From the IMG/VR virus record IMGVR_UViG_3300026142_000021, positions 1-24,507 of that record: a stretch of DNA of 24,507 bases. One strand, given 5' to 3'. Position numbers and translations under genes: made by a program. This document shows, one piece after another, positions 5,451 to 24,419 of this stretch. The notes under the pieces were generated by a model. It did not search any database, had not been told where the DNA came from, and was given only the letters and a program-made list of their open reading frames with translations. The DNA comes from a virus. Position 1 is the first letter of the stretch. Each line of letters starts with the position of its first letter.

Positions 5451-5455
5451 CGAAT

Positions 5456-5989: not shown

Positions 5990-5991
5990 GA

Positions 5992-6474: not shown

Positions 6475-6496
6475 CCCAACGGCAAAAGCGGTTCAT

Positions 6497-6546: not shown

Positions 6547-6568
6547 TCCCGCAAAGCAAAGGTGATTT

Positions 6569-6898
6569 ATGGAACTGATTCAGAAAACTCTCAAGTACAA
6601 GGGCAAGGAAGAGCAGGTTTACTTCAAGGAACTGACCGCCGGCCAGCGGCTAAGCCTGCTCAAAGGACAGCGCATCTAGACGCATCCGGGCGACGAAAAG
6701 GCCACGATCGAAATTGACCTTGGTGATAATCTCGAACGCAATCATCGTTTGGTTCAGATGACGCTGGTAACTGCGGAAGGCATTCTGGTCTATCGCACTA
6801 TTAGCGAACTACAAAGCGAATCCGATGCGAAGGTGCGCGCACTGGTCAAGCTTGCGTCCGAAGTCCATAAGGATGACGACGAAGAAAAAAACGCCTAA
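6569..6898 (+). CDS. Tail assembly chaperone G-like protein (one TAG as Gln)
   Basis: Recoded reading gives 109 residues from ATG 6569 (AAGGTG 5 bases upstream) to TAA 6896-6898. It opens MELIQKTLKYKGKEEQVYF and has KELTAGQRLSLLKGQRI with the amber at 6677 (codon 37), then an acidic, Lys-rich end (DDDEEKNA). Small acidic proteins directly before the tape measure gene are gpG-type chaperones that coat it before tube assembly. The end of the gene carries a slippery run for making the longer GT form. In the standard code this gene would be a 36-residue stub. Confidence 0.8.
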
Positions 6899-7221
6899 GC
6901 GGTAATCCGCAGCTTCGGTTCCTTTGCCGACTTGCCCTGACGTTTCGTAGGCCACTTCATGAAGTCATGGACTGGCCTGCGTCTCACATCGATTTATGGG
7001 CGCAATATCTCGGCAAGGAACCGTCGCCGGATGACCGCATGGAAATCCAGATGGCCGCGCTGTAGGCGCTCTACATCAACTCGCATAAACGCGAGGGCGA
7101 TCCAGCGAAACGCATCGATGAATTCCTCCTATTCCGCAATGCTTGGGGCGATGCTCCGCAGCCGGAATCCTCACTCTCTGATCTGCTAACCGAATTCGGG
7201 CACCATAACAAGGCGCGATAA
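6569..7221 (+). CDS. Tail assembly chaperone GT fusion by -1 frameshift (two TAG as Gln)
   Basis: The product is read as join(6569..6892, 6892..7221), base 6892 being used twice. After the slip the frame reads RLSGNPQLRFLCRLALTF, then HEVMDWPASHIDLWAQYL and MEIQMAALQALYIN, ending at TAA 7219-7221. RFLCRLALTFRRPLHEVM and the WPA....WAQYL block are typical of the T part of phage chaperones, which binds the tube subunit while the G part binds the tape measure. The T part has an amber at 7063-7065 (MAAL-Q-ALYIN). Making GT thus needs one frameshift and two amber readings. The tape measure start overlaps the GT stop (TAATG). Confidence 0.82.
6886..6892 (+). promoter_or_regulatory. Programmed -1 frameshift slippery heptamer A AAA AAC
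   Basis: In the G frame the codons are GAA GAA AAA AAC GCC TAA, giving the exact heptamer A-AAA-AAC in the right phase two codons before the stop. A -1 slip enters a frame open to 7219-7221 that encodes a T-like domain, the classic lambda G/GT arrangement. Confidence 0.85.
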
Positions 7222-10200
7222 TGGCAACGATTGTATTTGACCTGAAGGCGATTACCGGGGCGTTTATTACCGACTTCTAGCGCGCCTCGAAAGAGGCGCA
7301 GAAGGCGATGAAGGAAGTCCGCGACTCGATAAACGAGACGGCGGCTGGTGCGAAAGAGGGTCTTCTTGAGGCGGTGAAATCCCTGACTGGCCTGAGTGCT
7401 GGTTAGCTCGGTCTTGGCGCTCTCGCCGCCGGCTTGGGCGAGGTGACGAAGCAAGCCATCGAGACTGGCGACAAACTGAATAAGATGGCGCAGAAGGTTG
7501 GCATCGGCGTCGATTCTCTCCAGGGCCTTGTCTATGCCGCATAGCTTTCAGACGTTGGCATCGAATCACTCGGGTCTGGGCTTGAGAAGTTCAACAAGGC
7601 GATATCTGCCGCCGCGGGCGGTAGTAAGGAATAGGCAGCCGCGTTTGCGTCTATTGGCGTTAGCCTCAATGATGCGAACGGAAAACTTAAGCCTACAGCG
7701 CAGCTCGTGTCCGAGGTATCGGATAAATTCAAAGGGTTCACGGATGATGCGAACAAGACGGCGCTGGCAATGGCGCTATTCGGCAAATCTGGTGCCGAAC
7801 TAATCCCATTCCTGAACACAGGAAGTGAGGAAATCAAGAAAATGGCCGCCGAGGCAAAGGCTCTCGGTGGTGATTTCGCGGCAATTGCAAAGCCATCCGA
7901 GGAATTCAACGACAACATAACGCGCATGAAATATGCGGCGGTTGGTTTCGGCGTGGATATAGCGAAGGAATTATTGCCCGTCTTGATTGAGGCGGAAGAG
8001 CGCATATTGGATTTCATCAAATCCGCACGAGAAAACGGCACCTTCTAGGCATTGGCATCAGCAATCGGAGTTGTCGTTAGCAATCTCGATACCCTTGCGG
8101 TCGTGCTCACGTCGCGCCTAGCCATTGGTGCAGCAATTTCTGCGTTTGAGACCCTTACCGTTGCCATAACCTCGACCGCCGGAGCTGCTGCTTTTGCAGA
8201 AGGTGCGCTTGCATTACTTGGCGGACCTGTAGGTATCTTGGCAATCGCCGCAGGGCTGATGTATCAATTTTCTACAACTACAGATATAGCCACACAAGCT
8301 ACTGATCATCTCAGGGATGCGATCAAGAAGGCTGACGATGCGACAAACGAATCCCTGCCTGGTCAAAAGGCTGCGCTTAGGGCCGCAATTGATCGAGCCA
8401 ATGCTGACCTCAAGGCGGCAGATGCAGCATTGACTCGCGCCGAGGCCGAACAAAAACTAGCGAATGCTAATTTGCCTGCGCCAGGCGCCACATTCACAAA
8501 TGGTGGTGGCGCATTCACACTTGCGGCGGGCATGGCTGATTCAAAAGTCGATAGTCTAAAATAGCATATTGCTGATTTGCGAAAGGAGATATTCAGCGCA
8601 AACGAATCCCTAAGCATTCTCGCGATCAATTAGAACATTGTTGGCGAGAAGGCGAAACAGGCAACGCCAAACTTCAATGGCCTTGCGAAGGCCATGACCG
8701 ACGCAGAAAAGCAGGCTGAGAAGCTTGCTAAGGACGGAGTTGAGCTTGCCTCGTTTCTTGATCAGTTGTCTTCCAAAACTGCAGATAAGCATACGAAGGC
8801 ATGGGCGGAATACGGTGCAGCAATCGAAAAGATTAATGCCCTTTCCACAAAATTTATCAAGGATGGAATGGATCAGGCCAGGGTCCAACAGTTCATATCC
8901 GATGCGACCCAACTTGCAACCCGTTCATTGCGCGAATAGACTGATGCAAACGAGAATCTTCTTCATGTCTTTGGCGATCTCGATACGCAAATAGCGCAAG
9001 AAACTCAAACGCTGGGGCTGAATTCCGACCAGCGAGATATCGTGAATGCCACGATTAAGGCGTAGGCGGAAATCTCAAAAGCACTTGAGGGCGTAATGGG
9101 GCCATTGACTCAGGCGCAGCAAGACGAAATTGATGCAGAGCTTGGGCGCGTGTAGTCACTTGAGTTGCTGAAACAAGAAACAAAGCGCGGCGAAGAGGCG
9201 GCGAGAGACTGGCAAAATGTCTGGAAAACTGCAGGCGATGGATTGGCGAGCACATTTGCTAGCATTCTGGTCAATGGCGGCTCATTATTCGATGGCCTTG
9301 TTAACCTGGCCAAGCAAACCGTCTAGGCGATCATCGAATATTTCGCCAAGCTCGCGGTCATCAATCCGATTCTGAATTCGATCTTTGGCGGATAGGCCGG
9401 TTTCAATCTGCTGCCGACGCTAGGTAGCGCGATTGCTGGCGGCGGTGGCGTTGCCGGTGGTTCAGCCGGCATATCGTCGATCTTCTCCGCCTCGTCATGG
9501 GTCAACGCAGGTAAGAATCTCTGGTCAGGATTCAGCACGTTCTGGAACGGCTCCGGCGTCGATGGCGTCGGCGGCAATTTCATGGGCAATTTCGTCACCG
9601 ATAACGGCACGACGACCTGGACGAATAGCGGGCTAGGGAGCGCAATTGGCATTGCTGGCGGCCTCTATGCTGGCTACAACCGATACTAGAGCGCTGGCGG
9701 CGGCCTCGCCGGCCTCGCAGGAGGGGCGGCGTATGGCGCGGGCACCTATGCCCTTGCCGGCGGCCTCGGCTCGCTTGCCGCGGGCGGTGGATTTGCTGCT
9801 GGCGTATCTGGCGCGTTCGCGGCAGTTCCCGTGGTGGGCTGGATTGCATTGGCCGCAATGGCCATTGACATGCTCTCTGGCGGAAACCTGTTTGGCACGG
9901 CCGCGAAGCCTACGGGCAATACGACTTAGAACATTGTTCTAGGCCAAGAGAGCGCGTCCGTACAAAATCAGTACGAAACGAAAAAGAAAGAAGCCTTTTT
10001 CGGCGGAAATTCCTATAGCTGGAAAGACTTCGCCGCGACCGACGATTAGATGGCTGCCGCAGATGCGCTTTTCTCCGGCATCCTGAAATCGGTGACCGCT
10101 GGCGCAGATGCGCTTGGTGGCAAGGTCGGCACGCTGATTACTGGCTCGTTCTATCAGAAGTTCGATAAGGATGGGAAGGTACTCGATGCCTATTCGACCG

Positions 10201-11852
10201 TGCTCGGTTAGAAATACAAAGAAACGATGCAGCAGTTCGCGGAGCGCGTCACCGCTGAGAACTTGCTGGCATTGCTTCCCGCCGCATAGAACGCTTCGAA
10301 GATCGCCGATCAATGGCGCGCATCTGCGGATGCGTTGCTAGACGGCACCAGCCTGCTACTTTCAGCGCAGGTCGATATCAACAAGGGTATCGGCTTGCTC
10401 GGGGACAATGGCAGCCTTGCGGACATCACGAAAGAAGTTCAGAAGCTGCAGTTGCAGAATGAATCTCTTTCGCAGACCTATTCGAGATTGCAGACCGAGC
10501 AGCAGACGTTCAAGACCATTCTTGACACGTTGGGGCTGACGACGGGCAAGACGGGGGCTGACTTCCTCGAATTCACGGACAAGCTAGTCACCATGGCGGG
10601 CGGCCTATAGAACCTGCAAAGCGCTTGGGATGGCTATTACAACGCCTACTATTCCGATTCCGAGAGGCAGGCGAATGCGCTCAAGGCGATGCAAAAGGCC
10701 GTTACCGATACTTTCCAAGTTATCGGCGAAGACCCCGCCGAAAGCATGGCGAAGTTCCGTGCAGATTTTGAGGCGGCACTCCCAACGCTGACACCGGAAT
10801 AGGTGCTGCAGTGGCTTGCTGGCGCGAACGCACTCGCCAATCTGACCGCATATATGAGCCAAGCGGCAGATGCGGCAACGAAACAGGCCCAGGCAGACGC
10901 GGCGGCGCAAGCTGCGGCGATGAAGAGCTATTCCGACTTCGTCGCATAGTTCGATCCGAAGACGCTCGGCATCACGGCGTTTGAGAACTCGCTGATTGGC
11001 CTACACGGCACGCTGACGGACAATATCCAAAAGGCGAATGATCTGGCGAAGGCCGCCGGCATGGCTGGCGCTTCTCAGCAGGATATTGCAAAGATCATTA
11101 CTGCCTCCGCATAGGCCGGCGTCGATGCGCTTAAGGCGTTTGAAGATCAGACGCAGCGGCTTGCTACGAAGCTCTACGGTACAGACATTGATCGCCTAAC
11201 CAAGCAATTGACCGATCTGCAAGCTGTAGACAAAACGCGTCTTGCCGGCGTGGACCCGTATACCGCATCCCAGTTGGCGCCCTTCTTCGCCAAGCAAGAG
11301 CAAGCGATTCAGGATCAGATCGATCAGGCGAACGCTTAGGCGGCAGCGCTGCAACGGCTGGCGGATGCGACCTCACTCCTATCCAATCTCGGATAGATCG
11401 GTTCAATCACTGGTCAATCGCTTGACGACTTGACAAAGCAGTTCAGCATCCCATTGGATAAGTTTGCGACCGATCTTGGCCTTTCTGGCAGTGATCTCAA
11501 CAAGCAATTCCAGCAGGCCGAATTGCAGGCTCAGGCAGCGATCAAGGCGAACGAATATCTAGCCGATATTCTGGCCACATTGCAGGGCAAGCCAATCAAT
11601 GCACTCAGTACACTTGATGGAATAATTGGCAGCAAGCCGGTGCCTACACAATCCGCGCCTGCGGACAATTCCACGGCGCTCAACGCCATTGCGGATAGGA
11701 TCATCGCCGCGATCAATAATGGCACTGGAGCAACACAAAACACCGCGAGGGTTATCGCCAGTGCGCTAACGACTCAAACCACGCGGCAATCTGCGGCGGC
11801 ATTGAGCGGTCCACGCACCACGCAGCCACCTCGCTTTTCGCAGCCGGCATGA
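7221..11852 (+). CDS. Tail tape measure protein (23 TAG as Gln)
   Basis: Recoded reading is one continuous frame of 1543 residues from ATG 7221 to TGA 11850-11852; in the standard code it breaks into more than 20 pieces. I count ambers at 7278, 7404, 7542, 7632, 8046, 8562, 8631, 8937, 9063, 9153, 9324, 9393, 9687, 9927, 10047, 10209, 10287, 10608, 10800, 10947, 11112, 11337 and 11394. N-terminal parts such as KLNKMAQKVGIGVDSLQGL and ALFGKSGAELIPFLNTG are standard tape measure motifs. Long Ala/Gln/Lys helical stretches follow, then a Gly/Ala-rich membrane-like region at about residues 730-895, and further coiled coil. It sets tail length and passes with the DNA at injection. It is by far the longest late gene and directly follows the G/GT chaperones, as expected. 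Confidence 0.93.
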
Positions 11853-12235
11853 TTGTCCCTCGCGTTGTCGTCAGCGAAATGTTCGACGGAATGTCGATAC
11901 ATGGAAGCGCGCCGACTGGCCTGACGACACAGACATACTCGGCAACCTTCACGGCGGTCAGTCCGACGCCTCCGCCTTATACATTCACCATTACCGGCAC
12001 GTTGCCGCCGTCGATCGACCCTACGAAGACATCCGACTCGATCACGTTTTCTAGCAATAACCTCACAACCGCAGGCATTTATACCGTCACGCTGACAGCG
12101 CGCAATTCAGACCGCGTCCGCGCAAGCATCACGATCACATTCGTGATCATCGCATCAGAGCCGGATAACGCGATCATTGACGAATATAACAACTTCATTG
12201 TCGATGAATCAGGTAATAGGATTTTGTACTCATAA
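11849..12235 (+). CDS. Ig-like/cadherin-like beta-sandwich tail protein
   Basis: This encodes 128 residues from ATG 11849 (ATGA overlap with the tape measure stop) to TAA 12233-12235, with no TAG. Residues about 25-105 look like a putative Ig/He_PIG domain: YSATFTAVSPTPPPYTFTIT, GTLPPSIDPTKTSDSITF, then LTTAGIYTVTLTARNSD. The last 25 residues (NAIIDEYNNFIVDESGNRIL) are acidic and typical of a linker or short fold in phage tail proteins. It probably decorates the tail tip and may bind surface sugars. Lack of ambers sets it apart from the tape measure. Confidence 0.65.
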   Translation: MIVPRVVVSEMFDGMSIHGSAPTGLTTQTYSATFTAVSPTPPPYTFTITGTLPPSIDPTKTSDSITFSSNNLTTAGIYTVTLTARNSDRVRASITITFVIIASEPDNAIIDEYNNFIVDESGNRILYS

Positions 12236-12765
12236 TGGACAAACAAATATATCTATATCCAGAAGTCACAGCGCCATCTGGCACTGAACGTGCACTTCTT
12301 TGGAGCGGACCAGATGTAACTGGTTATACAGCTAACATAAAGCTATCAACGATTGCTGCACTGTCGAAATCAGTCATCCGCCTGGACATATTCCAGGGCA
12401 TTGTTTCATCGAAGTACGACTCGACGCAGAAGCGCGTCTGCGGAAAGGTCAAGTTCGATCCGACAGCAGCGCGATACAAGCTTTCGACGACATCAACCGC
12501 GACTCTTTACGTCAACCTGGAAACAACCAGTGCTTCGAACGCTGCCTACTTCGAGTTGTTTCAGGAATCCGGTACTGGATCACCACTGAGCATCGTCACG
12601 CTCAATACCACGTCACTCACGACCGTCACATTAACGGCAGACGTTTCAACCTATTTCCGCAGCAATTCTAACGCCGGCCTATTCACTGGTCGCGAATGGA
12701 TAAACGTTGCCGATTCCATGAACTACGCGAATGGTTCTGGAGCGTGGATCGAAATTCAACCTTGA
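12235..12765 (+). CDS. Hypothetical tail-region beta-rich protein
   Basis: This encodes 176 residues from ATG 12235 (shares one base with the previous stop, TAATG) to TGA 12763-12765, with no TAG. It is rich in Ser/Thr and alternating strands (TLYVNLETTSASNAAYFELF, TSLTTVTLTADVSTYF), suggesting a jelly-roll or receptor-binding fold. No family is recognised. Position between the Ig-like protein and a tail virion protein suggests a tail-tip or fibre component. Confidence 0.55.
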   Translation: MDKQIYLYPEVTAPSGTERALLWSGPDVTGYTANIKLSTIAALSKSVIRLDIFQGIVSSKYDSTQKRVCGKVKFDPTAARYKLSTTSTATLYVNLETTSASNAAYFELFQESGTGSPLSIVTLNTTSLTTVTLTADVSTYFRSNSNAGLFTGREWINVADSMNYANGSGAWIEIQP

Positions 12766-12772
12766 GAAATAT

Positions 12773-13861
12773 ATGTCGCTTCCTACACTATCTAAGTCAT
12801 GGACGTTCAACTGCAACAACGCTATCACGGCACAAGGCACCGCTTTGGCTGATTGCTAGGCTCTACTACTGGCGATAGTCAATGCGCTTTTGGCTACCGG
12901 TAAATGGGCGGTAGCATATTCATGCAATTCCGTCACGGCAGGCTCCGCAGGAGATGGAGTTAATCGCTGGTCTACTGGTGCGAATCTGGTATGGGGTAAT
13001 ACAACGCGGTCTTGGATGGTACTAAAAAACACCAGCATGCCTGGGGGCAATTATCAGCTTTGCATCGACTTAAGCAATTCGGCAAGCAATAACCTAAGCA
13101 TAATACGATCGGTAAATGCAGGGTTTACCGGCGGTACCGTGACTGCTAGACCAACAGCAACAGATCAAGCAACGGTGTTGAATAATTTGACGTGGGGAGG
13201 ACCAAGTTCCGATCAGGCGATGCGCTGGTCAACTGAAGTTAGTACGGATGGGCAATGCACGCGAGTCATTACCGCTGGTTCAGGCAGCTTAAGGGGATAT
13301 TGGTACTTTGAGCAAACTGCTAGTCCAGATACCGGGACTACATATCCAATAGTGGATTACGCAGTTGGAGTGAATACCGGAACAGCCAACCCGAGTTTAA
13401 CCGCAATACTGGTTTACCCGCTAAGTGCAACCCCAGGGACGGCGAGCGTAGGTTACGTCAGTCAACTAACCGCGCTTACTAGTCCGAGTTCTATTTCAAG
13501 CAATTGGCCTATGGTACCAGCTTGTATCGTTGGAACAACGGCGGGTGTTTTTGGCTACCTTGGCATGTTCCAAGACATGTGGATCGGGTCCGCTAGCATC
13601 GCTACTGGTGATAGCTACCCAGGAGCAGCGAATTGGGCGCCGAGCACGTCATATGCGGTGGGCGCACAAGTCACAAATGGATCCAATGTATATACCTGCA
13701 CCACCGCTGGAACTTCTGCATCAAGCGGCGGCCCAACCGGCACAGGGACAGGAATTAGTGACGGAACTTGCGTTTGGAGTTTTTTCTCGCAGACATTGAA
13801 GTTCGTTCAAGTAGGGCAGTACATCATTCCATGGAACGGCGGGGCGTTTAACCTCACATGA
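12773..13861 (+). CDS. Phage tail virion protein, fibre-like (one TAG as Gln)
   Basis: Recoded reading gives 362 residues from ATG 12773 to TGA 13859-13861. It opens MSLPTLSKSWTFNCNNAITA then GTALADCQALLLAIVNALL, with the amber at 12857 (codon 29). This opening recurs in virion proteins of proteobacterial phages as I remember them. The C-terminal third has WAPSTSYAVGAQVTNGSNVY followed by TCTTAGTS, a carbohydrate-binding-like repeat. Only one TAG in 362 codons. In the standard code the first 28 codons would be lost, but a start at 12890 would leave most of the protein. The stop overlaps the next start (ATGA). Confidence 0.65.
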
Positions 13862-14109
13862 CTGCGCGCGCTGGTGGTTTCTATAACGTACAACCTACGG
13901 CGCCATCCGCTGGACTTCGCGGCATTGGTCGCTCTTCTGGCGCATTCTATGCGTTTCAGTCACGCCTTCCGATCTATTGGAATACCGGATGGTACTTGGG
14001 CGTTCAAGAAACTCCGTGGCTCAGCTACGGCGCGCCAAGTTCAATATCTCCAAGCGGGCACACACCATTGACAAACGTGCAGTATGAATTGCTCGAATCA
14101 CTGCCATGA
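13858..14109 (+). CDS. Small hypothetical tail-region protein
   Basis: This encodes 83 residues from ATG 13858 (ATGA) to TGA 14107-14109, with no TAG. It is aromatic and Gly rich: RAGGFYNVQPTAPSAGLRG, FYAFQSRLPIYWNTGWYLG. There is no recognised family. Tight overlaps with genes on both sides show it is part of the tail operon and suggest a structural role. Confidence 0.55.
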   Translation: MTARAGGFYNVQPTAPSAGLRGIGRSSGAFYAFQSRLPIYWNTGWYLGVQETPWLSYGAPSSISPSGHTPLTNVQYELLESLP

Positions 14110-16916
14110 CCGTACATCGCACTCTAACCGCATCAATCGAATTCACTATGCGACAGCTCTATTCGATTCTCGATAACACCTATGCTGATGCATCGATGGA
14201 TATCAGCGATGGCGCGACTATTCTAGCTTGCAATACTGGTGGCGCGAACTCGCACCGCATGTGTCGTTGCACAGTGCCTCTGTCCGATACCATCAGCTAG
14301 TTTGAGACGCTTACTTGGGGTAGTGGATCGCTTACCAACGGTTCGTTAGGCGCCGTATACATCGGAATCGTGAATGCAAGTGCGCCGACCAACAAGTATG
14401 TTGGCGAGGATGCGAATGGCTACGGGTTCCGTTTGGATGACGGCAAGCTCTACTTCAACGGCTCAGCCGTCGCCACGTTCACTGCCTGCGCGAAAGGTGA
14501 TCTCGTCTACTTCCGGGTCAACTTCGACAACAATCAGATTTTGATCACCGTTCTCAATGGCAGCACGACGATCGGCACGTATCTCGCGAGCACCACGAAC
14601 ACGGCGGCATGGTATCCGGCAATCACGGTTGCTGGCGGCTCCGCGTTCTCGTTGCAGACGTTCTTCAATGCAGGTCAGCGCACATTTGAGAACAACACCA
14701 ATGTGCAGGGCTGGTGGGATGCTGCCGCATAGCCCGCATCGGTCTATCTTGCGACCGATCCATATCTCTCGCAGCCATCCGACAGCTTGCCATCACAACG
14801 CTTTGATGCGGTCAATGGCGCCCTGATTCCAGACAATTCGATGGTCTTCCCGCGCGGCGCGGACTTCTGGATGAACAAGGGCGATAGCCGGCTCGGTTCA
14901 TCGCTGAGCACGCTGGCATTAGAAGACCCAGACGGAAAATATGATTTCATGCTTGACCATCGCAATGCAGCGATGAAGTTGAGCACGGTAGACCAGAGCG
15001 GAAGCTACGATAGCGCGTAGCTTGAGGATACCGTCATCCTTGATCGAGTGGAAACAAAAGGTGACCAAGCCAAGGTCATCTATATGGCCGATCCGATCGC
15101 GGAATTCTTATCAAAGCCGTTCAATACGACCTATTTTCTGCCGAACTAGGATTCTAGCGTGGTGGATACGCCGGTGCCGGTTCTTATCGGCATGGCGCGC
15201 AATTTCGAGCCGGTGTGTGAAGATCCGGTAAACCATGTCTACCGCATTAGTGATAGTGCAATAGGTGCAATTGGTGCGGTTAGGGTATAGGGCAAGCTGC
15301 TTGTATTCGGCACGGACTATACGTTGTCCGCTGACGGCATGCGAATCACTCTCACGGCTGCGCCTACAGGAAAATTGACCGTAGAGGCCAGCGGGGTAGT
15401 GCAGGGAATTCCTCCTGGTCCAACCGATTTGCTCAGTGGTCACGGCGACTTCGGCAGCTAGACGACTCCGGCAGTTTGGCAAGCCAACTGGCAAACCTAT
15501 TGGAGCGGAAATGATTCCTATACCAATGGTGACCGCCCCTGCTGGTTTGATGAGTTTGGCGGCGGCCATGTTGACGGCATAGACGATGCGGGCGGCCTGT
15601 CTGGCTCCAATGGCTCGGTGCTGATCAATTTCTATGCGACAACTCTGCGTCCGCAGAACTACGCCATAGGGTTCCGGACTAAGACCAATGTTGTGCAGAA
15701 CGGTAAGACCTATGCCTGTCAGGTAAAGTTTTGGGATGCGCCATACGTCGCGACTCAGCAGCCGTTGGATAGCACGACCTCGGTTCTTGCGCATTTCTTC
15801 CTTGACGGGCATCACGACCAATACCAATACCGCTCCGTAAATCACTGGTCGGGGATGTACTATTCTCAGTTCACAGATTCGGGCGGCAAGCCTGGGGCGC
15901 CTCAACTTGCCGCGGCTGGCGGTGTATGCAATGCGGTGTTCTTTAATACCGGCCTCAATCTTCAGCCGTACGCAACCGATTGTCCCGCCACGGCAACCAT
16001 CAGCTTCACCAACAATTCCGGCGCTGATCTACCCCTTTGCCTGAACTTCGTTGATGGCAACGGCGGATCATGGTGGATCCGCAGTGTGGTGCTTTACGAG
16101 TTGCCGGACGCGATCAATGCAGCCCCATTGCAAGGTGTCGGCCTCGAAGATTATATGCGCGCCGTGCTAACACGCGCTGGAATCGATGAAAGCCAATGGG
16201 ACCCAATACAGGCACGGGCAATCGATGCGGCTACGGGCTACCAGATCGGAAACTGGTTCTCGAATCAGCCGGTAACTGTTCAGTAGGCACTACAGCCCGC
16301 CCTTGACACGTTCGGCGCCTCCATCTATCGCAAACGTGATGGACGAATGGGCGTCGTTCGTCTGATTGATCCGGATACCGTAGCGGATGCGGATGTGAAT
16401 TGGGAAATCGACGAGAGCGATATCCTCTTGGAGCCTTATGTTTATCCCGATGTCATGCAGGGATTGACGACTGGCACCTATGGTCGAAAGAACATCTCTC
16501 CTGCGTCAGAGAGCGACTTTACGAACATGACGACCACTGACGTGTCAATCGCCGAGCGTAAATTGCTGGAAAGGAATTATCAGTTTACCTATACCAGCGG
16601 CGTGCAACTCAGCGAAATGTACGGTCAGGCATAGCTTAACGTTCCGCGTGAAACGCTATTCGACCTTAAGGCCGATATGTAGGCAGAAACCGAGCGCACA
16701 GTTGCCCTAGCGGTGAACACGCGCAAGTTCTTCCAGATCACAGTCAAAATGCCGCCAGGAACTCAATATGATGTCGGCGATGTTGGCAAGGTGACCTATA
16801 AGCTCAACTCAGCCGGAACGTCACGGCGGTACGGTCTGGATGGGGCAAAGGTTTTTGTCTTCGCCGTAGATCCGAACCCCGCTATGCAAACCTGCCTGCT
16901 TGTTTGTTGGAGATAA
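14106..16916 (+). CDS. Large tail-tip/hub-like protein with SPRY-like domain (nine TAG as Gln)
   Basis: Recoded reading gives 936 residues from ATG 14106 to TAA 16914-16916. Ambers are at codons 65, 209, 305, 348, 395, 452, 727, 843 and 859 (14298, 14730, 15018, 15147, 15288, 15459, 16284, 16632, 16680). Residues about 66-205 look like a B30.2/SPRY lectin-like domain (GYGFRLDDGKLYFNGSAV, GDLVYFRVNFDNNQILITV, WYPAITVAGG). A possible jelly-roll at about 445-675 follows. The C-terminal third (GLEDYMRAVLTRAGID, NWEIDESDILLEPY, KFFQITVKMPPG, DVGDVGKVTY) has the look of central tail hub/baseplate proteins. It likely forms the tail tip and contacts the host surface. A eukaryote-like SPRY fold in a tail hub is less common. 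In the standard code it is ten fragments. Confidence 0.75.
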
Positions 16917-17776
16917 TGATGTCTGGATCATCCCTATTCGGCTATGGCGCACCGGCAGGCGTGAGCTATGCCATTACGGGGGGCGCAGCCTTTGTTGGCA
17001 ACATCGTGCTCGACAACTCGGCGCCTTCCGATGTCACCCGCTTCACCTGGTCGTCTACATCGACCGCAGTCGTTACCCTGCAGGCGCTATGGTCAACGCC
17101 AATTGTTCCACGCTGCGGTTGTTTCTTAGGCACCACGCTTCCTATTGGCATGGTGGTCACAATCAAAGGAAAGCGGTCTGGGGATTCAAACTTCCCCTAT
17201 CTTCTTGGCGGAAATTCGTAGACATCAGTTGTGGTCTAGCTTGATGACGGATCACGGGCAATCATCTGGGCGTTCGATGCTGGATTGACTCCGATCATCG
17301 GCTATGAAATCGCCATGTATCCCGCGCTTAGTGTTACCTCATCGGAACTCTTTGAGATTGGTGAGGCTCGCATCTTTCAGGGCTACCGCCCCGGTAATGG
17401 CATTCAGGAGAAATGGACGCCGGGGTTTGACAATATTCAGAATCCATCAACAACGGTCAATCGCCAACCGCACGTTGTCAATCACCGCTACAACCATACG
17501 CTCAATCTGACCCTCGGCATCGCTACTGAACAAGCCGCATGGACGAGCGATAATGGCGACATATCGCTAAACCGCTTCGCGCACATTGCGGCCGCGCATC
17601 AGACCATGCTTGCGATCCCATATGCCTACAATAAGGGTATTCTGAACGCGCAAATGCTCGCCAACTCTGCGATCTACGGTTACGCAAGCAAGGTCGAGCA
17701 GCCTCAGCACATCGAGAACCATCTTTATCAGATGGCTATGTCGTTCACCGAATATCCTCCACAGCAATACGGCTAA
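16916..17776 (+). CDS. Hypothetical distal tail protein (two TAG as Gln)
   Basis: Recoded reading gives 286 residues from ATG 16916 (tandem ATGATG; the second at 16919 is also possible) to TAA 17774-17776. Ambers lie close together at 17219 (codon 102) and 17237 (codon 108): LGGNS-Q-TSVVV-Q-LDDGSRA. The middle IFQGYRPGNGIQEKWTPGF and VNHRYNHTLNLTLGIA segments are beta-rich; I know of no clear family. It follows the hub protein, so tail tip or receptor binding is likely. Confidence 0.65.
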
Positions 17777-17789
17777 CCAAGGAGTCACC

Positions 17790-18539
17790 ATGTATAAGTT
17801 CATTCTCGCAGCGATCCTGTTCGCCATTGCCTCTTTGGCGCACGGCTAGGTCGCTACCTGTACCGTCACTGGCCCGGATGGCTATAACGGACCATATTCT
17901 CCGGCGCTGAACTTCACTTGCGGAAGCACACCACCGCCACCAGTTTGCACGCCACCCGCAACCCTTGATCCAGTGACACATCAATGCGCGACACCGATCA
18001 ACTATTGTGACGCAAGCCAGATAAGCACCGCCCTTGGTGGCAAGACGTTTCAGCGGCAGTGCGCGGGGCAGATGGTGCTACAGCCCAACGGCATTGGTGG
18101 GGGAATCGTCGGCCTGACAGATCTTGGCTCTCTGCTTGGCAACAAGGCGTTCCCGAACTATCCGTATTCTGGGCAATCGCTGACGTTCTACATCGACTCT
18201 GGATACTACGTGTCGCTGGCGTTCACTCCCGCCGCATCGGGGCTGATTAAGTTCACTGCGAACAACAGCTACGGCGACGGCGGCACGATCTCGCTGAGCA
18301 CTTCGCCCGGTGTCTTGACCCCTGGCGCCCAAGGTGTCATCTGCGCATCAACCTATGGTGGTCTGAATAGCATGATCGTCGGTACATCGACGGGATATTG
18401 CCAGGTCAAGATCGGGCAGACGTACTACATTAACTTCGCCGACACAAACGCCAACGGCGATCAGCTTTGCTTTGGTGGGACAGCGGGGACATGTGCGCAG
18501 TCGCGTGTGTCCTACGCCTTTACAGCAAGAGCGCAGTAA
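17790..18539 (+). CDS. Secreted/exported phage protein with signal peptide (one TAG as Gln)
   Basis: Recoded reading gives 249 residues from ATG 17790, with an AAGGAG box 7 bases before, to TAA 18537-18539. A classic signal peptide is seen: MYKFILAAILFAIASLAHG. The amber at 17847 (codon 20) would be the first residue of the mature protein if cleavage follows AHG. The mature part begins with a Pro/Cys-rich stretch (CGSTPPPPVCTPPATLDP) and then a Cys-containing beta domain with CDASQIS, YYVSLAFTPAASGLIKF and GDQLCFGGTAGTC, probably disulfide-bonded in the periplasm or on the virion. As last gene of the late operon it may act in lysis, exclusion or adhesion; no family is recognised. Confidence 0.7.
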
Positions 18540-18713
18540 CCGGCCTAGCTAAGCGATCCATCGCCGTCCGCCGCTTGCGGCACTGCTTCCGGGTAGGCGT
18601 AGGGTAGGGGTGTCGACGCTCTCGTCGACATGGGCGATTCCCGCGCCATCCTGTAGGAGATTTCCTACGCCGGAAGGGTAGGTTTGTGCGGCTTTGAGTC
18701 GGCCTGTCGGAAA

Positions 18714-18741
18714 AATAGTAGCAGTCAGCAGGAATAGTAGC
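18714..18741 (+). repeat. Left pair of putative integrase arm-type sites
   Basis: The 9-mer AATAGTAGC occurs exactly at 18714-18722 and 18733-18741 (start-to-start 19 bp). The same motif occurs in inverted orientation on the other side of the tRNA-like core. Spacing and flanking position fit arm-type sites bound by the N-terminal domain of tyrosine integrases. Confidence 0.6.
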
Positions 18742-18743
18742 AA

Positions 18744-18775
18744 AAGGCCCGCAAGCGGAAAACGCTGCGGGCCTT
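18744..18775 (-). terminator. Strong hairpin terminator beside the att core
   Basis: AAGGCCCGC plus AGCG pair with CGCT plus GCGGGCCTT (13 bp, one bulged A, loop GAAAA). On the - strand it is followed by TTTTGC, a short T-run, so it acts best for transcripts running right to left, i.e. the integrase operon or, after integration, the restored tRNA-Asn gene. It may also stop late + strand transcripts. Confidence 0.65.
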
Positions 18776-18783
18776 GTCGTTAT

Positions 18784-18834
18784 TGGCTCCCCGAGACGGA
18801 CTCGAACCGCCGACCCAGTGATTAACAGTCACTC
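18784..18834 (-). other. attP core: 3' half of a tRNA-Asn(GTT) gene
   Basis: On the - strand this reads as an anticodon arm AGTGA-CTGTTAA-TCACT (anticodon GTT), variable loop GGGTC, T-arm GGCGG-TTCGAGT-CCGTC, acceptor strand TCGGGGA, then G and CCA ending at 18784. The D-arm and 5' acceptor strand are absent: the bases before the anticodon arm cannot form them. Phages that integrate into tRNA genes carry exactly such a 3' half to rebuild the gene. It lies about 90 bases beyond the integrase stop, flanked by arm-type motifs. Confidence 0.85.
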
Positions 18835-18890
18835 CCGGCAATGTGATGATATCGCATTGATTCGTATAGCGAAAACTGCATTTGCAAATT

Positions 18891-18957
18891 GCTACTATTC
18901 GGCAAAATCGACCGGCTACAGACCGCATTATTGCTTGACCTGTTTGCGGATAGTAGC
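18891..18957 (-). repeat. Right pair of putative integrase arm-type sites
   Basis: GCTACTATT at 18891-18899 is the exact inverse of the left-side motif (longer match TTGCTACTATTC). GATAGTAGC at 18949-18957 matches 8 of 9 bases in the left-side orientation and lies inside the last codons of the integrase gene. Together with the left pair they bracket the core. Confidence 0.5.
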
Positions 18958-19917
18958 AAGCGGAGTCACCGCCGTTGGCTTGGCGCGATAGTGCTTTCTA
19001 GTCACCTTTTCGTCGCTATGCCCGAGCCTTTGCGCGGCGTCCGTGTCGCTCGCTGAATCGCTGCCAGTCTTGCGGCGCAGATCGTGCCACTTCAAATCCT
19101 TGACCGGCAATTTCACGCGCCAGCGCTGCCATGTCGAATGGAAGCTATCCGCCGTGTAGTGCTTGCCATCGCGCGTCGGGAATAGTGGCTGCGAACCGAT
19201 GCGGTCGCCCGCCGCATCCTTCCACACCTCCCGCAGATCATCCGTCCATTCAAGCAGTATCGGCTTGCCGCCCTTGCTCGGCCTGTACGTCACCCCCTCT
19301 TGACCGGCCTGCGTGATTCGCAGCGCGAGCACATCGGCCTGACGCATGCCCGTCAGATAGCTCCAATGGGCCATCTGTGCGAGGCGGCGGGGAAGGGCGC
19401 CAATGATCGCGGTCAACTCGGCGTCGGTCACATAGCGTTGCCTAGGCGCCTCGGGATTGCGGAAGTGCATTCCCTTGCACGGATGATCGCCGCGAAACTC
19501 GCCCGCGTTCAGGAGGTGTGTATACATCGCCGATAGCAGCGCGCGGTCACGGTTCGCCGCCACATCGCCGCGCTCGGTTAGGTACTTGTAGACGTGCTCG
19601 CGCTTCAATTCGTCCAGCGCAAGCGCGCCGAATATCGGGATGAGCCGCTTTGCGCTCCTAGCATATCCCTTGCGCGTCTCTGGCCTTAGTTTGTCGTGGC
19701 GTAGCGCGAGATACTTCGCCAATGCCTCGCCGACCGTCTCTGCGGGCTTGTGCGGCTCGCCGACTAGCTCGGCGTACTGGCGAAGCGCCTCGCCATAGTC
19801 GCTGCCTAAGCGAAGCCAGCGCTGCTTGCCGTCCTGCCGGTACTTGTAGCTATAGACCTTTCCACGCTTGACCATACCGCGCGGTAGGAACTTGTTCGAC
19901 TCACGCAGCCTTCCCAC
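18928..19917 (-). CDS. int: Tyrosine integrase
   Basis: This encodes 329 residues from GTG 19917 to TAA 18928-18930. This start is preferred to GTG 19941 because it has a GGAG box 8 bases before it and gives MGRLRESNKFLPRG, the usual opening of this phage integrase group. The N-terminal part (VYSYKYRQDGKQRWLRLG) is arm-binding-like and the middle is a SAM-like core-binding domain. The catalytic domain shows Arg in SYLTGMRQADVLALR, Lys in PSKGGKPIL, HDLRR, GHSDEKVTRKHY with the nucleophilic Tyr. No internal TAG. It integrates the phage at a tRNA-Asn gene, judged from the neighbouring attP. It overlaps the DUF4224 gene end by 17 bases. Confidence 0.93.
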   Translation of the reverse strand: MGRLRESNKFLPRGMVKRGKVYSYKYRQDGKQRWLRLGSDYGEALRQYAELVGEPHKPAETVGEALAKYLALRHDKLRPETRKGYARSAKRLIPIFGALALDELKREHVYKYLTERGDVAANRDRALLSAMYTHLLNAGEFRGDHPCKGMHFRNPEAPRQRYVTDAELTAIIGALPRRLAQMAHWSYLTGMRQADVLALRITQAGQEGVTYRPSKGGKPILLEWTDDLREVWKDAAGDRIGSQPLFPTRDGKHYTADSFHSTWQRWRVKLPVKDLKWHDLRRKTGSDSASDTDAAQRLGHSDEKVTRKHYRAKPTAVTPLATIRKQVKQ

Positions 19918-20116
19918 GGATCGCGCTCCAATCCGGTTCACGCGCCTTGCGCGCCGGCTTCTCGTTGCCGAAATAGTCTACGCGCTTCACCAGCGGGCGA
20001 CCAACGGCATTCGGACGAAAGGGGATGCCCATTGCCGCCAGAGCGCGACACTGCGCCGACCAGCGCTTGCGCGCAGTCAGCTCAATGATTGTTTCTGGCG
20101 ATAAGTGTTCGCTCAC
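19901..20116 (-). CDS. DUF4224-type small protein upstream of integrase
   Basis: This encodes 71 residues from GTG 20116 (GTGA overlap with the previous stop) to TGA 19901-19903. SEHLSPETIIELTARKRWSA, then QCRALAAMGIPFRPNAVGRP, is the DUF4224 pattern: a short helix-turn-helix-like fold almost always encoded just upstream of phage integrases. Such proteins are thought to help DNA binding or excision, but this is not established. An upstream in-frame start (20149) would overlap the GIY-YIG gene more and lacks the family start. Confidence 0.8.
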   Translation of the reverse strand: MSEHLSPETIIELTARKRWSAQCRALAAMGIPFRPNAVGRPLVKRVDYFGNEKPARKAREPDWSAIRGKAA

Positions 20117-20628
20117 GCAGATTTCTTGGCCTTCGCCATTGCGTCGCAACTTTCAATGAAGTCGATAAGCTGCCAGCCAGTTATGAACTTTCTATCGTTT
20201 ATTTCAACGAACCCTATCTTGCCTTTTTGAATCAACGATGAAATCGCACTAGACGCCACGCCAATGGCATCCGCCGCCTCCCTTCGATTGTATAGAGGCT
20301 TGAACCTTACGGTTTGGTGCACAAGTTCTGCGCGCGCCGCCTCATATTTGCTGTTCGGCGCGGCCTCTACACGCCTATGCACAATGTTATGCAAAGGCTT
20401 TTCATTCTTGATGGCTTCGCGTTCAGCGGCAATCGCATCAGCACGACTGGGGAAAGATACGATTTCGACTCTGGCTATGCTGCCGAACCAATGCGAGTGG
20501 TCTTGATGCTGGCCGAGTCGGGAAATTGCGGATAGTGAAATTCCGACATACAGAAGTTTACCGTCAGCATCGAAGTGTCGGTACAAATTCGTCTTGATTG
20601 CCAATCCTTCATTCATTCCATCGCCCAT
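20113..20628 (-). CDS. GIY-YIG nuclease domain fused to an excisionase-like HTH domain
   Basis: This encodes 171 residues from ATG 20628 (GAGG 8 bases upstream; ATG 20634 is possible but too close to that box) to TGA. The N-terminal half is GIY-YIG: LYRHFDADGKLLYVGIS with both Tyr positions, Arg in ISRLGQH, Glu in AAEREAIKNE and Asn in PLHNI, so the catalytic set looks complete. The C-terminal half (LYNRREAADAIGVASSAISS, then KGKIGFVEINDRKFITGWQL) looks like a winged HTH of the excisionase/MerR type. The combination two genes before int suggests a site-specific nuclease or a recombination regulator. Its stop overlaps the DUF4224 start. Confidence 0.75.
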   Translation of the reverse strand: MGDGMNEGLAIKTNLYRHFDADGKLLYVGISLSAISRLGQHQDHSHWFGSIARVEIVSFPSRADAIAAEREAIKNEKPLHNIVHRRVEAAPNSKYEAARAELVHQTVRFKPLYNRREAADAIGVASSAISSLIQKGKIGFVEINDRKFITGWQLIDFIESCDAMAKAKKSA

Positions 20629-20643
20629 TCTCATTTCCTCGTC

Positions 20644-20874
20644 TTATCCCGCAATCAGTCGCCGGCTAGCCCTGACCGGTTCAATGAAGTCAGGGTGGTA
20701 GCCACTCGCCGTCTTTCTTCCCTCCCATAAAACGGTTGGACTATTGAACTCATCCACCCGCGTTACGATCCCGATCCTCTTTGCCTTCACGCCAACATAA
20801 AGGGTTGCCTCGATCCCTCTCTTGCTAAGGCGAACCTTCTGGCCGATTTTGAAAGGTGGTTGTGAACCTATCAT
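20644..20874 (-). CDS. Small SH3/KOW-like hypothetical phage protein
   Basis: This encodes 76 residues from ATG 20874 to TAA 20644-20646. FKIGQKVRLSKRGIEATLY, then KRIGIVTRVDEFNSPTVLWEG and GYHPDFIEPV, is the five-strand pattern of small SH3/KOW-like phage proteins (Gly-Val-Val turn, then W, then YHPDFIE). The role is unknown. A GAGAGA box precedes the start. Confidence 0.6.
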   Translation of the reverse strand: MIGSQPPFKIGQKVRLSKRGIEATLYVGVKAKRIGIVTRVDEFNSPTVLWEGRKTASGYHPDFIEPVRASRRLIAG

Positions 20875-20884
20875 TCTCTCTTCC

Positions 20885-21121
20885 TCACTCCGCTAGCCGA
20901 TTAGGCTGGAATAGGTCCGCGTTCTTTGCCCTGAGTTCTGCGCAATGATCGCCAGGTAGGCAGTGACCGCCAGTTACACGGCATCCAAACCCGCAGTGAC
21001 CGATATCGCCCCAAGGGCCGCGCTGCGTTACCGTATATTGCAGCGGGCATCCTTGCGCATCGAAGCCAGGATGGCTTGCGTAAGGGTTCACGCCGTCTTG
21101 TGGAACCATTCGTTCTTGCAT
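20885..21121 (-). CDS. Cys-rich small phage protein
   Basis: This encodes 78 residues from ATG 21121 (AGGA 6 bases before) to TGA 20885-20887. It contains CPLQYTV, then GHCGFGCRVTGGHCLPGDHC, i.e. five or six Cys and several His suitable for zinc binding. No family is recognised. It follows the TAG-terminated gene with 7 bases between them, so its separate start matters for judging that TAG as a real stop. Confidence 0.55.
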   Translation of the reverse strand: MQERMVPQDGVNPYASHPGFDAQGCPLQYTVTQRGPWGDIGHCGFGCRVTGGHCLPGDHCAELRAKNADLFQPNRLAE

Positions 21122-21128
21122 AAAAATC

Positions 21129-21641
21129 CTAGTTCACCCCAGCGGACGATCCGCGAAAAGGGAAGGGTAAATTCTTCGATTCTCGGTCTTTTACGTAACT
21201 CCCCAACCAATGCAGCCAGATAAACGAGGCCGCAGCGTAAGGCTCGTTAGCAATGCACATCGCGAATGCGAAGAGCAAAATCATTGCGGTAGTTTCTTCG
21301 CAAGATCGGGTGTAAGCCCGCACAAATTTGTTGATCGTGTTTCGCTGATTCTCGATACGATGGTGCAGGGCATTCATCTGGCGCGCGCTTTCGTAGTCGG
21401 CTGCTTCAACCGCGGCAACGTGATCGGCATAGCGCACGTAGTCGCCGTCCGAATCAGGCTCGATGTCCTGCCAGTTTTCCATCCCGCGCGAGCGCAGAAC
21501 CAATTCGTATCGTGCAATCGTGCTCATCGCGCCCCCCCAAATCACCCAACCACACCACCCAAAGAACACAACCCACCCGAGCAGGCACAGCACGCCATAG
21601 ACCGATTTTGAAACGTTCGGTGTAAGGGATCTGGCATTCAT
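21129..21641 (-). CDS. Two-segment membrane-like early protein ending in TAG
   Basis: This encodes 170 residues from ATG 21641 (ATGA overlap with the upstream gene) to TAG, 21131-21129 on the - strand. Residues about 15-35 form a membrane segment (VYGVLCLLGWVVFFGWCGWV), followed by a soluble part starting at Met 39 (MSTIARYELVLRSRGMENW, DIEPDSDGDYVRYADHVAAV), a helical stretch, and a second hydrophobic segment (TAMILLFAFAMCIANE). Met 39 follows a run of seven G (21532-21538), which can act as a ribosome site or a slippage point, so a shorter product is possible. The TAG stop is the only one seen among all genes of the window. Confidence 0.6.
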   Translation of the reverse strand: MNARSLTPNVSKSVYGVLCLLGWVVFFGWCGWVIWGGAMSTIARYELVLRSRGMENWQDIEPDSDGDYVRYADHVAAVEAADYESARQMNALHHRIENQRNTINKFVRAYTRSCEETTAMILLFAFAMCIANEPYAAASFIWLHWLGSYVKDRESKNLPFPFRGSSAGVN

Positions 21642-21766
21642 GCTGTCAACACGTTCCCGCAAACGGACGTCGAATGCCTCGACGCGAGCTTGGCGATGTT
21701 CCGCTGTCGCAACGCCTCGCGTTCTGCGGTGCGAGGGTTGTATTCGTAGCTGAATTTCTGTGGCAT
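21638..21766 (-). CDS. Short 42-residue early protein
   Basis: The gene starts at ATG 21766 in a TGATG overlap with the upstream gene, with GGAGG just upstream, and ends with TGA overlapping the next ATG (ATGA). It reads MPQKFSYEYNPRTAEREALR and then a basic helix. Overlaps at both ends and the ribosome site support it. Function unknown. Confidence 0.55.
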   Translation of the reverse strand: MPQKFSYEYNPRTAEREALRQRNIAKLASRHSTSVCGNVLTA

Positions 21767-21954
21767 CACCCCTCCTTGCTCGGCGTGGGCTGATCGTCGA
21801 AAAAGCCGCGTAGGTTTCGATACAAGCTCTCTGCCTGCTCCCAACTAAGTTCGACCTGGATGCCACCCGCATTTAAGCGAATATAGGAAAGCTCGGCGTT
21901 TTCCACCGTCACGTCTTCGAACTCGTCTTGAGAAATGTCGATCTGAATTTCCAT
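21766..21954 (-). CDS. Small acidic early protein
   Basis: This encodes 62 residues from ATG 21954 (TGATG with the upstream stop) to TGA. It is acidic with one alpha/beta unit: MEIQIDISQDEFEDVTVENA, VELSWEQAESLYRNLRGFF. No family is recognised. A longer in-frame start at 22233 would cover two other coding regions and is rejected. It is part of the overlapping early chain. Confidence 0.6.
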   Translation of the reverse strand: MEIQIDISQDEFEDVTVENAELSYIRLNAGGIQVELSWEQAESLYRNLRGFFDDQPTPSKEG

Positions 21955-22151
21955 CACGGCTTCACCTCCGGCGTGGGTGCGGCGGCGAGCGCTTGCCTCA
22001 TTTGCTCTGCCGTATACAGCCATGTGCAATCGAAATCGATTACCCGACCACGCTGGCATCGTGCGCATTGATCCACGTAGCTCGGCAACAAAATTCCGAA
22101 CGTACCGATTCGACGCCAGCGGTGTATTCCGAGTGCACAAAGTAGATTCAT
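21954..22151 (-). CDS. Small protein with CxxC zinc-ribbon-like motif
   Basis: This encodes 65 residues from ATG 22151 (ATGA overlap) to TGA 21954-21956. MNLLCALGIHRWRRIGTFG, then VDQCARCQRGRVIDF, shows one CxxC plus an upstream Cys/His that could bind zinc, similar to small phage and bacterial zinc-ribbon proteins (typically C.lG.H.W...C.RC). Function unknown. Confidence 0.65.
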   Translation of the reverse strand: MNLLCALGIHRWRRIGTFGILLPSYVDQCARCQRGRVIDFDCTWLYTAEQMRQALAAAPTPEVKP

Positions 22152-22885
22152 TTGCTGAGCCTCTCGATCGCTGATTCGATGATTTCCCGCGCAAGACCAC
22201 CAATGCCGTGTGGAACAAGCGAACCGCTGGCATCGAGGTTTAGCAGCGCTTTGGCCTGAGCAATAAAAGCGGAGTGATCCTCCGGCAAGCCCGTCTGCGC
22301 CACGGGAATTTCAGCGATCAGCGACTCGATGCTCATGCCCGTAGGCGACCACGTCTTGCCAAGCTTGACGCACAGCATCTTCTCGACTTCGATTGCCCAT
22401 GCCGCAACCTGATCCGTCTGCGCCACGGGCTGCGCGGCAAGTCCAGCTTCAAGAATCGCTGTCACGCACGGACGCCCAATGAAAGCCTTGTTCACGATCG
22501 CGTAGGCGGCGTCTATCATTTCCTTGGTCGGCTCACGGATTACTTCCCCCTGCGCGGCGAGCATCGGGGCGATGGCTTTGAATCGGTGACGTGCTGCGAC
22601 CAGCGCATCGTAAGCACCAAGGCAGTATGCTTGTGCAGAGTCTTTGCCGCGGAATTCCTCGCGACCACTGCCGTACAGTTTTTCATTCAGTCGTTCTATC
22701 TCGGCATCGAACACATCGTGCGGAGCTTTGGCTGCTTCCGACAGCCTGTCGAGCATTGGCCCGATGACTTCGGCTACGTGGCGAACTGACGCACGCAAAT
22801 TGTTTCCGTCGTACACGTCGATGAAAGCCGCATACGCATCGTTCTCAATTTCGTCCGTAACGAAAAACTTCGTTTGCTCGCTCAC
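22148..22885 (-). CDS. Hypothetical early phage protein (245 aa)
   Basis: This encodes 245 residues from ATG 22885 (ATGA overlap) to TGA 22148-22150. It is mostly helical; EVIREPTKEMIDAAYAIVNK is a motif often seen in proteobacterial phage proteins of unknown role, usually near other early genes. It also has VDQ-like and AAQPVAQTDQVAAWAIEVEK repeats of low complexity. No catalytic motif is seen. No internal TAG. Confidence 0.65.
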   Translation of the reverse strand: MSEQTKFFVTDEIENDAYAAFIDVYDGNNLRASVRHVAEVIGPMLDRLSEAAKAPHDVFDAEIERLNEKLYGSGREEFRGKDSAQAYCLGAYDALVAARHRFKAIAPMLAAQGEVIREPTKEMIDAAYAIVNKAFIGRPCVTAILEAGLAAQPVAQTDQVAAWAIEVEKMLCVKLGKTWSPTGMSIESLIAEIPVAQTGLPEDHSAFIAQAKALLNLDASGSLVPHGIGGLAREIIESAIERLSK

Positions 22886-24111
22886 TTCCCACCCCCAAGT
22901 TGATCGGCGACGGCTAGCACATGCTCCAACATCGCGCGCGCCTGCGGGTCATTAAGCAGGTTTGTTCCTATCGGCCAACAATGAGGGTATTTGTCACTGA
23001 ACGACCTGTCGAAGTTGATGCCGGCGTCGGGGTGAAAATCCTTCGGAAGTCGCCACGACAAAAAACGACGCACCATTTCATCCGTCACGACATCTTTGGT
23101 TACTGGCGTTTGCGCCCGTGCTCGAAATTCATCACGCTCGGCGATGAGTCTTTCGAGAAACGTCGACATGTCTTCGTCGTCGTGCGCACCGCCCTTTTCG
23201 CGAACGGCCAGATTCGCCGCAATCTCGTCGTGCAAAACTTCCTTTAGCCGATCAATTTCCACTTTCTGCTGTTCGATCCTTTCCTTACCCCGCTCGCTAG
23301 TTAACGATGCCGGCGTTTCGTTTACTTGGGGGTGCGGCGGGTGGGTGTAGAGCGCCATCCACGGATAGCTCTCGGCACGATGCGCATCACTGCCGACCGG
23401 ACGAGTGTCCGACCAGAGCGGCCCGTTACGCGGATGCACAGGAACGTGCGCTACTAGCTCTCCCTGCGCCGCAGGTTGGGCAAATATGACACTCCCATCC
23501 TCAGCATGCGTGTGCGCCCTTGATACTGCACACCAACAATCGGATTGCGAAAGCGCCGCAACCCGCTTCATCCGCGACTTGCTCGGCGTGTCGTCCGCTG
23601 CGGTGTGTTGGGCGGCAAGGGCGGAACTCCACGCCGCTTGCCAGTTATCCCATGCGACGGTCGTTTGAATATCCGCATCCGGCTCAACTGGAAGGCCGAA
23701 CCATCGCTCAAACGCGGCACGGCACGAAGCATCCGCAACGGTTGGCATCTTGCAGCATCGACCGAACGGCATATCCTTGGCCGCGCAGGTACATTCCGGC
23801 TGGGCGGCAAGTCTTACCGCCATCTCCTCGCCGAATTCGCGCTGTTCGTTACCTTGAAACCCGCACAGGAGCATCGCATCGTTTGCCGCCTGTTCGTCGG
23901 CGTCGCTGCCATCACCGCAAACCTTCGGTAGCCACCGAATCAGCGCGGCTTGCAATTCAGCGATCTGCGCTTGATAGCGATTTTGCCCCCGGGTCGCCAG
24001 CCGCACCAGTTCCGCGCGAATCAATTTCCACTTGTCCCCGTGCATCGTCACGCAGTCGAACTGCTCGATCGCTTCGCGGACCTCGGGCGGGAAGGGGGAA
24101 AGGTCGGTCAT
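22882..24111 (-). CDS. Hypothetical early phage protein (409 aa)
   Basis: This encodes 409 residues from ATG 24111, which overlaps the upstream TGA (ATGA), to TGA 22882-22884. It is modular: an N-terminal helical part (FPPEVREAIEQFDCVTMHGD), a Cys patch (ECTCAAKDMPFGRCC), a segment with AFERWFGLPVEPDADIQ and WDNWQAAWSSALAA common in phage proteins, a coiled coil (GKERIEQQKVEIDRLKEVL), then TDEMVRRFLSWRLPKDFHPD. Such mosaics of short phage modules are frequent in early operons; the function is not known. No internal TAG. Confidence 0.65.
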   Translation of the reverse strand: MTDLSPFPPEVREAIEQFDCVTMHGDKWKLIRAELVRLATRGQNRYQAQIAELQAALIRWLPKVCGDGSDADEQAANDAMLLCGFQGNEQREFGEEMAVRLAAQPECTCAAKDMPFGRCCKMPTVADASCRAAFERWFGLPVEPDADIQTTVAWDNWQAAWSSALAAQHTAADDTPSKSRMKRVAALSQSDCWCAVSRAHTHAEDGSVIFAQPAAQGELVAHVPVHPRNGPLWSDTRPVGSDAHRAESYPWMALYTHPPHPQVNETPASLTSERGKERIEQQKVEIDRLKEVLHDEIAANLAVREKGGAHDDEDMSTFLERLIAERDEFRARAQTPVTKDVVTDEMVRRFLSWRLPKDFHPDAGINFDRSFSDKYPHCWPIGTNLLNDPQARAMLEHVLAVADQLGGGK

Positions 24112-24368
24112 AGCGCCCACCCGAAAGGAATGTCCGCGCGCTTGACATACTTGACCACCAAGCCCTCATCGTTGGCGATCAGATGCACGTCATAGCCAAG
24201 TTGGTCCGCAGCGCTGACTCGTGCGTGCAGATCAGCGAGCGACCAACCCTCTGACAGTCTCGCCTTTGGATAAGTCCACATGATCTTGCGACTCGCATAC
24301 TTGACCTTCCATGCGAAATCCTTCACGTCTTTGAGAAGACGCTGATACGGATTAATCCTCACGGTCAT
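24108..24368 (-). CDS. Small hypothetical early protein (86 aa)
   Basis: This encodes 86 residues from ATG 24368, preceded by AGGAG 6 bases before, to TGA 24108-24110. It is basic at the start (INPYQRLLKDVKDFAWKVKY), then SLADLHARVSAADQLGYDV and a short beta hairpin. No family recognised. It starts 51 bases after the SSB stop, and its stop overlaps the next start. Confidence 0.6.
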   Translation of the reverse strand: MTVRINPYQRLLKDVKDFAWKVKYASRKIMWTYPKARLSEGWSLADLHARVSAADQLGYDVHLIANDEGLVVKYVKRADIPFGWAL

Positions 24369-24380
24369 ACATTCTCCTTT

Positions 24381-24406
24381 CGCCGAGCCGATGAACTGGC
24401 CCGGCG
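24381..24406 (-). other. Hairpin between SSB and the next early gene
   Basis: CGCCG..GCC pairs with GGC..CGGCG (8 bp with one A-C mismatch). It lies just upstream of the ribosome site of the gene at 24368. There is no T-run, so it is more likely a message structure than a terminator. Confidence 0.25.
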
Positions 24407-24419
24407 TGGTTGGGATAGA

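Follow-up and report, generated by a model that had tools for sequence, protein, structure and literature searches.

Positions 18714-18958 of the window, by which we mean the whole 24,507-bp stretch of DNA analyzed, can be read from their sequence with high confidence as the attachment site (attP) of a phage, including arm sites for its integrase. The site is of an already known kind, a textbook anticodon-type tRNA attP of the well-known type, and would let the phage insert into a tRNA-Asn gene without breaking that gene. More unusual than the site is its setting, an integration cassette of roughly 2 kb that a TAG-recoded phage has in common with an otherwise unrelated, standard-code one. The resulting attP/attB pair is precise and testable.

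A tRNA-Asn half beside an integrase gene

The core of the site and the two genes that accompany it are:

18784..18833, minus strand: attP core, tRNA-Asn(GTT) 3' half, positions 27-76 with CCA, 50 nt identical to host tRNA
18928..19941, minus strand: tyrosine integrase, 337 aa (PF00589, 1.2e-10; PF14659; phrog_1 integrase, 2.3e-47)
19901..20149, minus strand: probable excisionase (DUF4224), overlapping the integrase start (PF13986, 5e-12; phrog_8896 excisionase, 1e-8)

The original prediction placed a tRNA-Asn 3' half in the core, which is correct, but gave it 51 bases where the actual length is 50 nt. It also proposed a search for bacterial tRNA-Asn genes with an identical 3' half, and 21 contigs of the genome collection contain a perfect copy of the 49-nt core, in every case within a complete tRNA-Asn. 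Many of these contigs come from Rhodanobacteraceae (Rudaea, Tahibacter, Dokdonella and others) and a few from elsewhere. Because the carriers include members outside this family, and the core is common to 21 species, the predicted host site at the 3' end of tRNA-Asn(GTT) stands as a tRNA but does not name a host species. No complete tRNA was found anywhere in the window, and the Rfam tRNA model detected the core fragment only below its cut-off. As in other anticodon-subsite attPs, the host-identical 3' part of the tRNA runs from the anticodon arm to CCA, and a tyrosine recombinase gene lies beside it. The overlapping DUF4224 protein is, by its profile matches, probably the excisionase; a GIY-YIG endonuclease-like gene (20113-20634) lies directly upstream of it. 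A class-level integrase search found no close relative among 369 genomes, and a megablast search of phage genomes gave no match to the window.

Phage DNA flanks the site on both sides, as in an attP and not an attL or attR. Left of the core, where a check for host DNA had been suggested, the genes are phage structural once in-frame TAGs are read through: only with TAG as an amino acid do they encode a tape measure, tail terminator, major tail protein and head-tail adaptor. A sister phage (G001, described below) has the same site, likewise between phage genes, which bears out both the attP reading and the earlier statement that this is not a prophage end. A junction of two tandem prophages in one tRNA-Asn gene (or a concatemer), on a contig partly integrated in a host, would be expected to give the identical sequence, with a 3' half only and phage DNA on both sides, and the record is linear. 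We consider such a junction unlikely, as no host gene was seen in the window and its late and right-hand genes match a single 56-kb phage record; even then, the att site would be functional.

Probable arm-type repeats flanking the core

Four copies of a 10-bp repeat surround the core:

18714..18723, plus strand: arm-type site 1, AATAGTAGCA, at -70 from the core start; geometry kept in relatives
18733..18742, plus strand: arm-type site 2, AATAGTAGCA, at -51, 19 bp from site 1
18890..18899, minus strand: arm-type site 3, inverted AATAGTAGCA, at +106
18949..18958, plus strand: arm-type site 4, GATAGTAGCA (one mismatch), at +165, within the integrase coding sequence

These copies are the sole matches within one mismatch across 24.5 kb, compared to 0.72 expected, and none of the shuffled windows reached four. 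Two direct copies stand left of the core, and an inverted and then a direct copy stand right of it, so that arm-type repeats flank the core on both sides as in lambda-type intasomes. The integrase gene ends between the two right-hand sites, confirming that its end falls inside the right arm. The sister phage has all four repeats at the same positions and without a letter changed, although identity in 50-bp windows of the right spacer drops to 74%. The repeats are very probably the arm sites of the integrase. IHF-like sites gave weak matches in the window and none in the sister phage.

A cassette common to otherwise unrelated phages

The sister phage, IMGVR_UViG_3300026078_000069, has an integrase 91% identical to that of the window. 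Two nested stretches stand out in the comparison:

18133..20100, no strand: integration cassette, the sole stretch common to the window and G001, 87% identity
18546..18832, no strand: left arm and core block, 287 bp, zero differences from G001 (int about 14% different)

Outside 18133-20100, the two phages are unrelated at the DNA level. The right edge of the 287-bp block is the edge of the tRNA core, as site-specific exchange would produce. Judged from two sequences, the identity of the block may reflect either constraint or a recent exchange of the left arm.

The block might also owe its conservation to a separate role, as a small RNA or a short ORF (18549-18743), with the repeats serving that role and not the integrase. 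Its perfect conservation next to a diverged int would fit, as would the folding of its RNA (z of about -2.6), but recent left-arm exchange accounts for the identity equally well and an Rfam search, which also disposed of the block as a known RNA, gave no hit. Moreover, the repeats flank the core, and repeats with other letters stand at matching places in Tahibacter harae, G466, G038 and PBR31 (below), which lack the block. We therefore regard a separate function as very unlikely and retain the reading of the repeats as arm sites. A host origin of the block was likewise rejected: genomes of the candidate host family match only its terminator part and an 18-nt motif, and no plasmid match was found. 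The motif, CTGTAGGAGATTTCCTAC (18652-18669), is exact in one genome of that family (G086), and a second (G087) has it with one base different and without the first C.

Integrated relatives

Tahibacter harae P2K carries a 44.3-kb prophage in tRNA-Asn with an integrase 41% identical to that of the window. Its complete tRNA-Asn lies at C78:86368-86443 and the displaced half at 42013-42059, beside the integrase and in the same orientation, with primase, helicase, terminase, portal and tail genes between the two. Further elements of 38.7 and 39.9 kb lie at tRNA-Asn in G466 (integrase 43% identical) and at tRNA-Thr in G038 (46%), respectively. A restored tRNA with a displaced 3' half is thus seen for relatives whose integrases are 41-46% identical. 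The T. harae prophage shows, in a relative, the integrated state that had been predicted, and the comparison upholds tRNA-Asn as the target.

Conserved arm geometry with different letters

Counted from the tRNA 3' end, the arm-type sites of the window and its relatives lie at:

Window and G001: -70, -51, +106 (inverted), +165; letters AATAGTAGCA
T. harae: -69, -50, +104 (inverted), +164; letters GATAGTGAC
G466: -70, -51, +103 (inverted, weak), +162; letters AATTTGGGCG
G038: -45, -26, +102 (inverted), about +165 (weak, p 0.17 alone); letters TAGTGGAAC
Xanthomonas phage PBR31 (tRNA-Ser half): -68, -49, +97 (inverted), +159; letters CTATGACCCA

The T. harae motif was first spotted by eye and measured afterwards. 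Predicting the right-hand sites from the left pair alone gave a joint p of 0.0005 for T. harae and lower values for the others. Of random 200-bp host windows, 1.3% contain a 19-bp pair (9/10 or better). Such pairs with other letters were found next to the tRNA in T. harae, G466, G038, G137 and PBR31, that of G137 adjoining its tRNA-Asn. In G038 and G137, the pair is 24-25 bp nearer the tRNA and there is no hairpin there. No 19-bp pair was found in G297, which has a similarly distant integrase and lies beside tRNA-Thr. One universal arm spacing was rejected, with more distant relatives having 21, 23 or 24 bp or none, and G297 none. The return of the four-site geometry with other letters in independent systems nonetheless substantiates the arm-type sites of the original prediction.

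We lean slightly towards a broader interpretation, in which this integrase family keeps to one intasome plan (a pair of sites 19 bp apart past the tRNA 3' end, with one inverted and one direct site opposite), whereas the 10-bp arm letters and the tRNA target are rewritten from lineage to lineage. The cassette would then move between unrelated phages, including between a TAG-recoded and a standard-code phage, with int to one side of the site or the other. In the window, G001, T. harae and PBR31, int is located 5' of the tRNA fragment; in G466, G038, G137 and G297, it is next to the complete tRNA. Grouping by side was rejected on the integrase tree, where it did not form one clade and did no better than shuffled labels. 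Since the sides do not fall into two clean clades, int seems, on what is a weak tree, to have switched sides while the polarity of the site stayed the same. The orientation of int relative to the tRNA and its effect on int regulation are discussed in a study of KplE1 (PMC2951348); in the window, int is directed towards the site, which would place its promoter outside the arms. Naturally diverged arm sites with conserved spacing are useful for learning how integrase N-termini read arm DNA.

A terminator-like hairpin next to the core

One further element lies between the left repeat pair and the tRNA 3' end, just past CCA:

18744..18775, minus strand: hairpin, perfect arms of 10 bp, resembling a terminator on the tRNA/int strand

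On the tRNA strand, the surrounding stretch of 55 nt has a folding energy of -24.5 kcal/mol (z of -3.6), in agreement with the strong hairpin first described beside the core. It may act as a terminator: the T run is under the threshold of a simple terminator scan, which found no terminator, but the hairpin resembles those of the host. Host tRNA-Asn genes have hairpin terminators at the same place after CCA; the first 12 nt past CCA in G100, ATAACGACAAGG, equal those of the phage, and the hairpin loop of G119 has the phage sequence. In our reading, the phage hairpin was captured from a host tRNA terminator or imitates one, and it is best taken as the terminator of the restored tRNA gene and, by extension, of the int message too. 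In the lysogenic state, transcription of the restored tRNA-Asn would stop at this hairpin, with the host's own terminator beyond the displaced half. In the T. harae prophage, a hairpin follows the complete tRNA and another follows the displaced half.

Recoded late genes

Phages with recoded stop codons in their late genes are already known. In the window, the tape measure gene (7221-11852) has 1,543 codons, including 23 TAG and no TAA or TGA, and reading through TAG raises the coding density of 219-18539 from 0.76 to 0.91. In-frame TAG is absent from the integrase gene and from the likely right-side genes. In the gene adjoining attP, TAG aligns at one position with a CAG (Gln) of G001. The late genes of the window phage are accordingly predicted to read TAG as glutamine. 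G001 is a standard-code phage; because the late genes of the window are TAG-recoded and the cassette is common to both, the cassette appears to have been exchanged between phages of different codes. A TAG-free lysogeny cassette common to a recoded and a normal-code phage bears on how recoded phages remain temperate in standard-code hosts. With TAG read through, the late genes also include a sialyltransferase-like gene (878-1678; phrog_4603, E 2e-25).

A 56-kb relative, G874, matches window positions 1-17497, and 20635-24416 only as short patches. This phage is informative on whether the window is an assembly chimera of two phages joined at the att block, as a perfect block of 287 bp could mislead an assembler and code use differs left and right of the site. 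Relatives of both stretches occur together in G874, albeit as short patches for the second, and there is a contig break in the slot between them, where a different integrase is found; both cassette flanks have homologues in G001 too. A chimera is therefore highly improbable.

The slot in G874 (L087:14554-16420) holds a different tyrosine integrase (Arm-DNA-bind_1) together with an Exc-type excisionase and one more ORF that includes an arm-binding-like stretch, and both contig ends break nearby. A CTA-anticodon tRNA, the expected amber suppressor by its anticodon, lies in a tRNA cluster in G874 and in G875, also a relative of the window phage (L086:7239-7315 and L088:19632-19706). G874 also has a circularly permuted tmRNA gene (L086:14260-14568; Rfam RF04321, 112 bits compared to a cut-off of 47); permuted phage tmRNAs have been reported (PMC9004378).

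Proposed mechanism and comparison with known systems

In the mechanism we propose, the N-terminal domain of the integrase would bind the four 10-bp arm sites and its other domains the tRNA-derived core. The core would recombine with the same sequence in the host tRNA-Asn(GTT) gene, and strand exchange would probably fall within the anticodon region. Once integrated, the phage would have the restored tRNA gene and the phage-borne terminator on its tail-gene side, and on its integrase side the displaced 3' half with the host's own terminator after it. The DUF4224 protein, as the probable excisionase, would control direction.

The closest published layouts are the Islander anticodon sites (PMC4383910) and the cluster K mycobacteriophages (PMC3203893). 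Islander anticodon-subsite ('A') sites have, like the window, a 3' tRNA fragment from the anticodon arm to CCA; the tRNA is restored on integration with the displaced 3' half at the far end, and there is no difference in principle (PMC4383910). In cluster K attPs, for example that of CrimD, two pairs of ~11-bp arm repeats flank the core, a stem-loop terminator separates core from arm, and the letters of the arm sites differ according to the integrase N-terminus (PMC3203893). Both right-hand sites are inverted in cluster K, whereas one is inverted and one direct in the window, and the phages are unrelated.

Among phages with related integrases, the integration module of PBR31 (int 33% identical) has the same + + core - + order as the window but uses a tRNA-Ser half instead of tRNA-Asn and the motif CTATGACCCA. 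The T. harae P2K prophage (int 41% identical) has the same tRNA, int side and arm geometry, but its motif is GATAGTGAC and its DNA is otherwise unrelated. Finally, the P2-like phage Smp131 and xanthomonad prophages have 45-46-nt 3' tRNA halves, including tRNA-Asn, and, like the window, direct repeats and a hairpin beside attP, although their repeats are 12 bp apart and on one side only, in a P2-like phage (PMC3931495).
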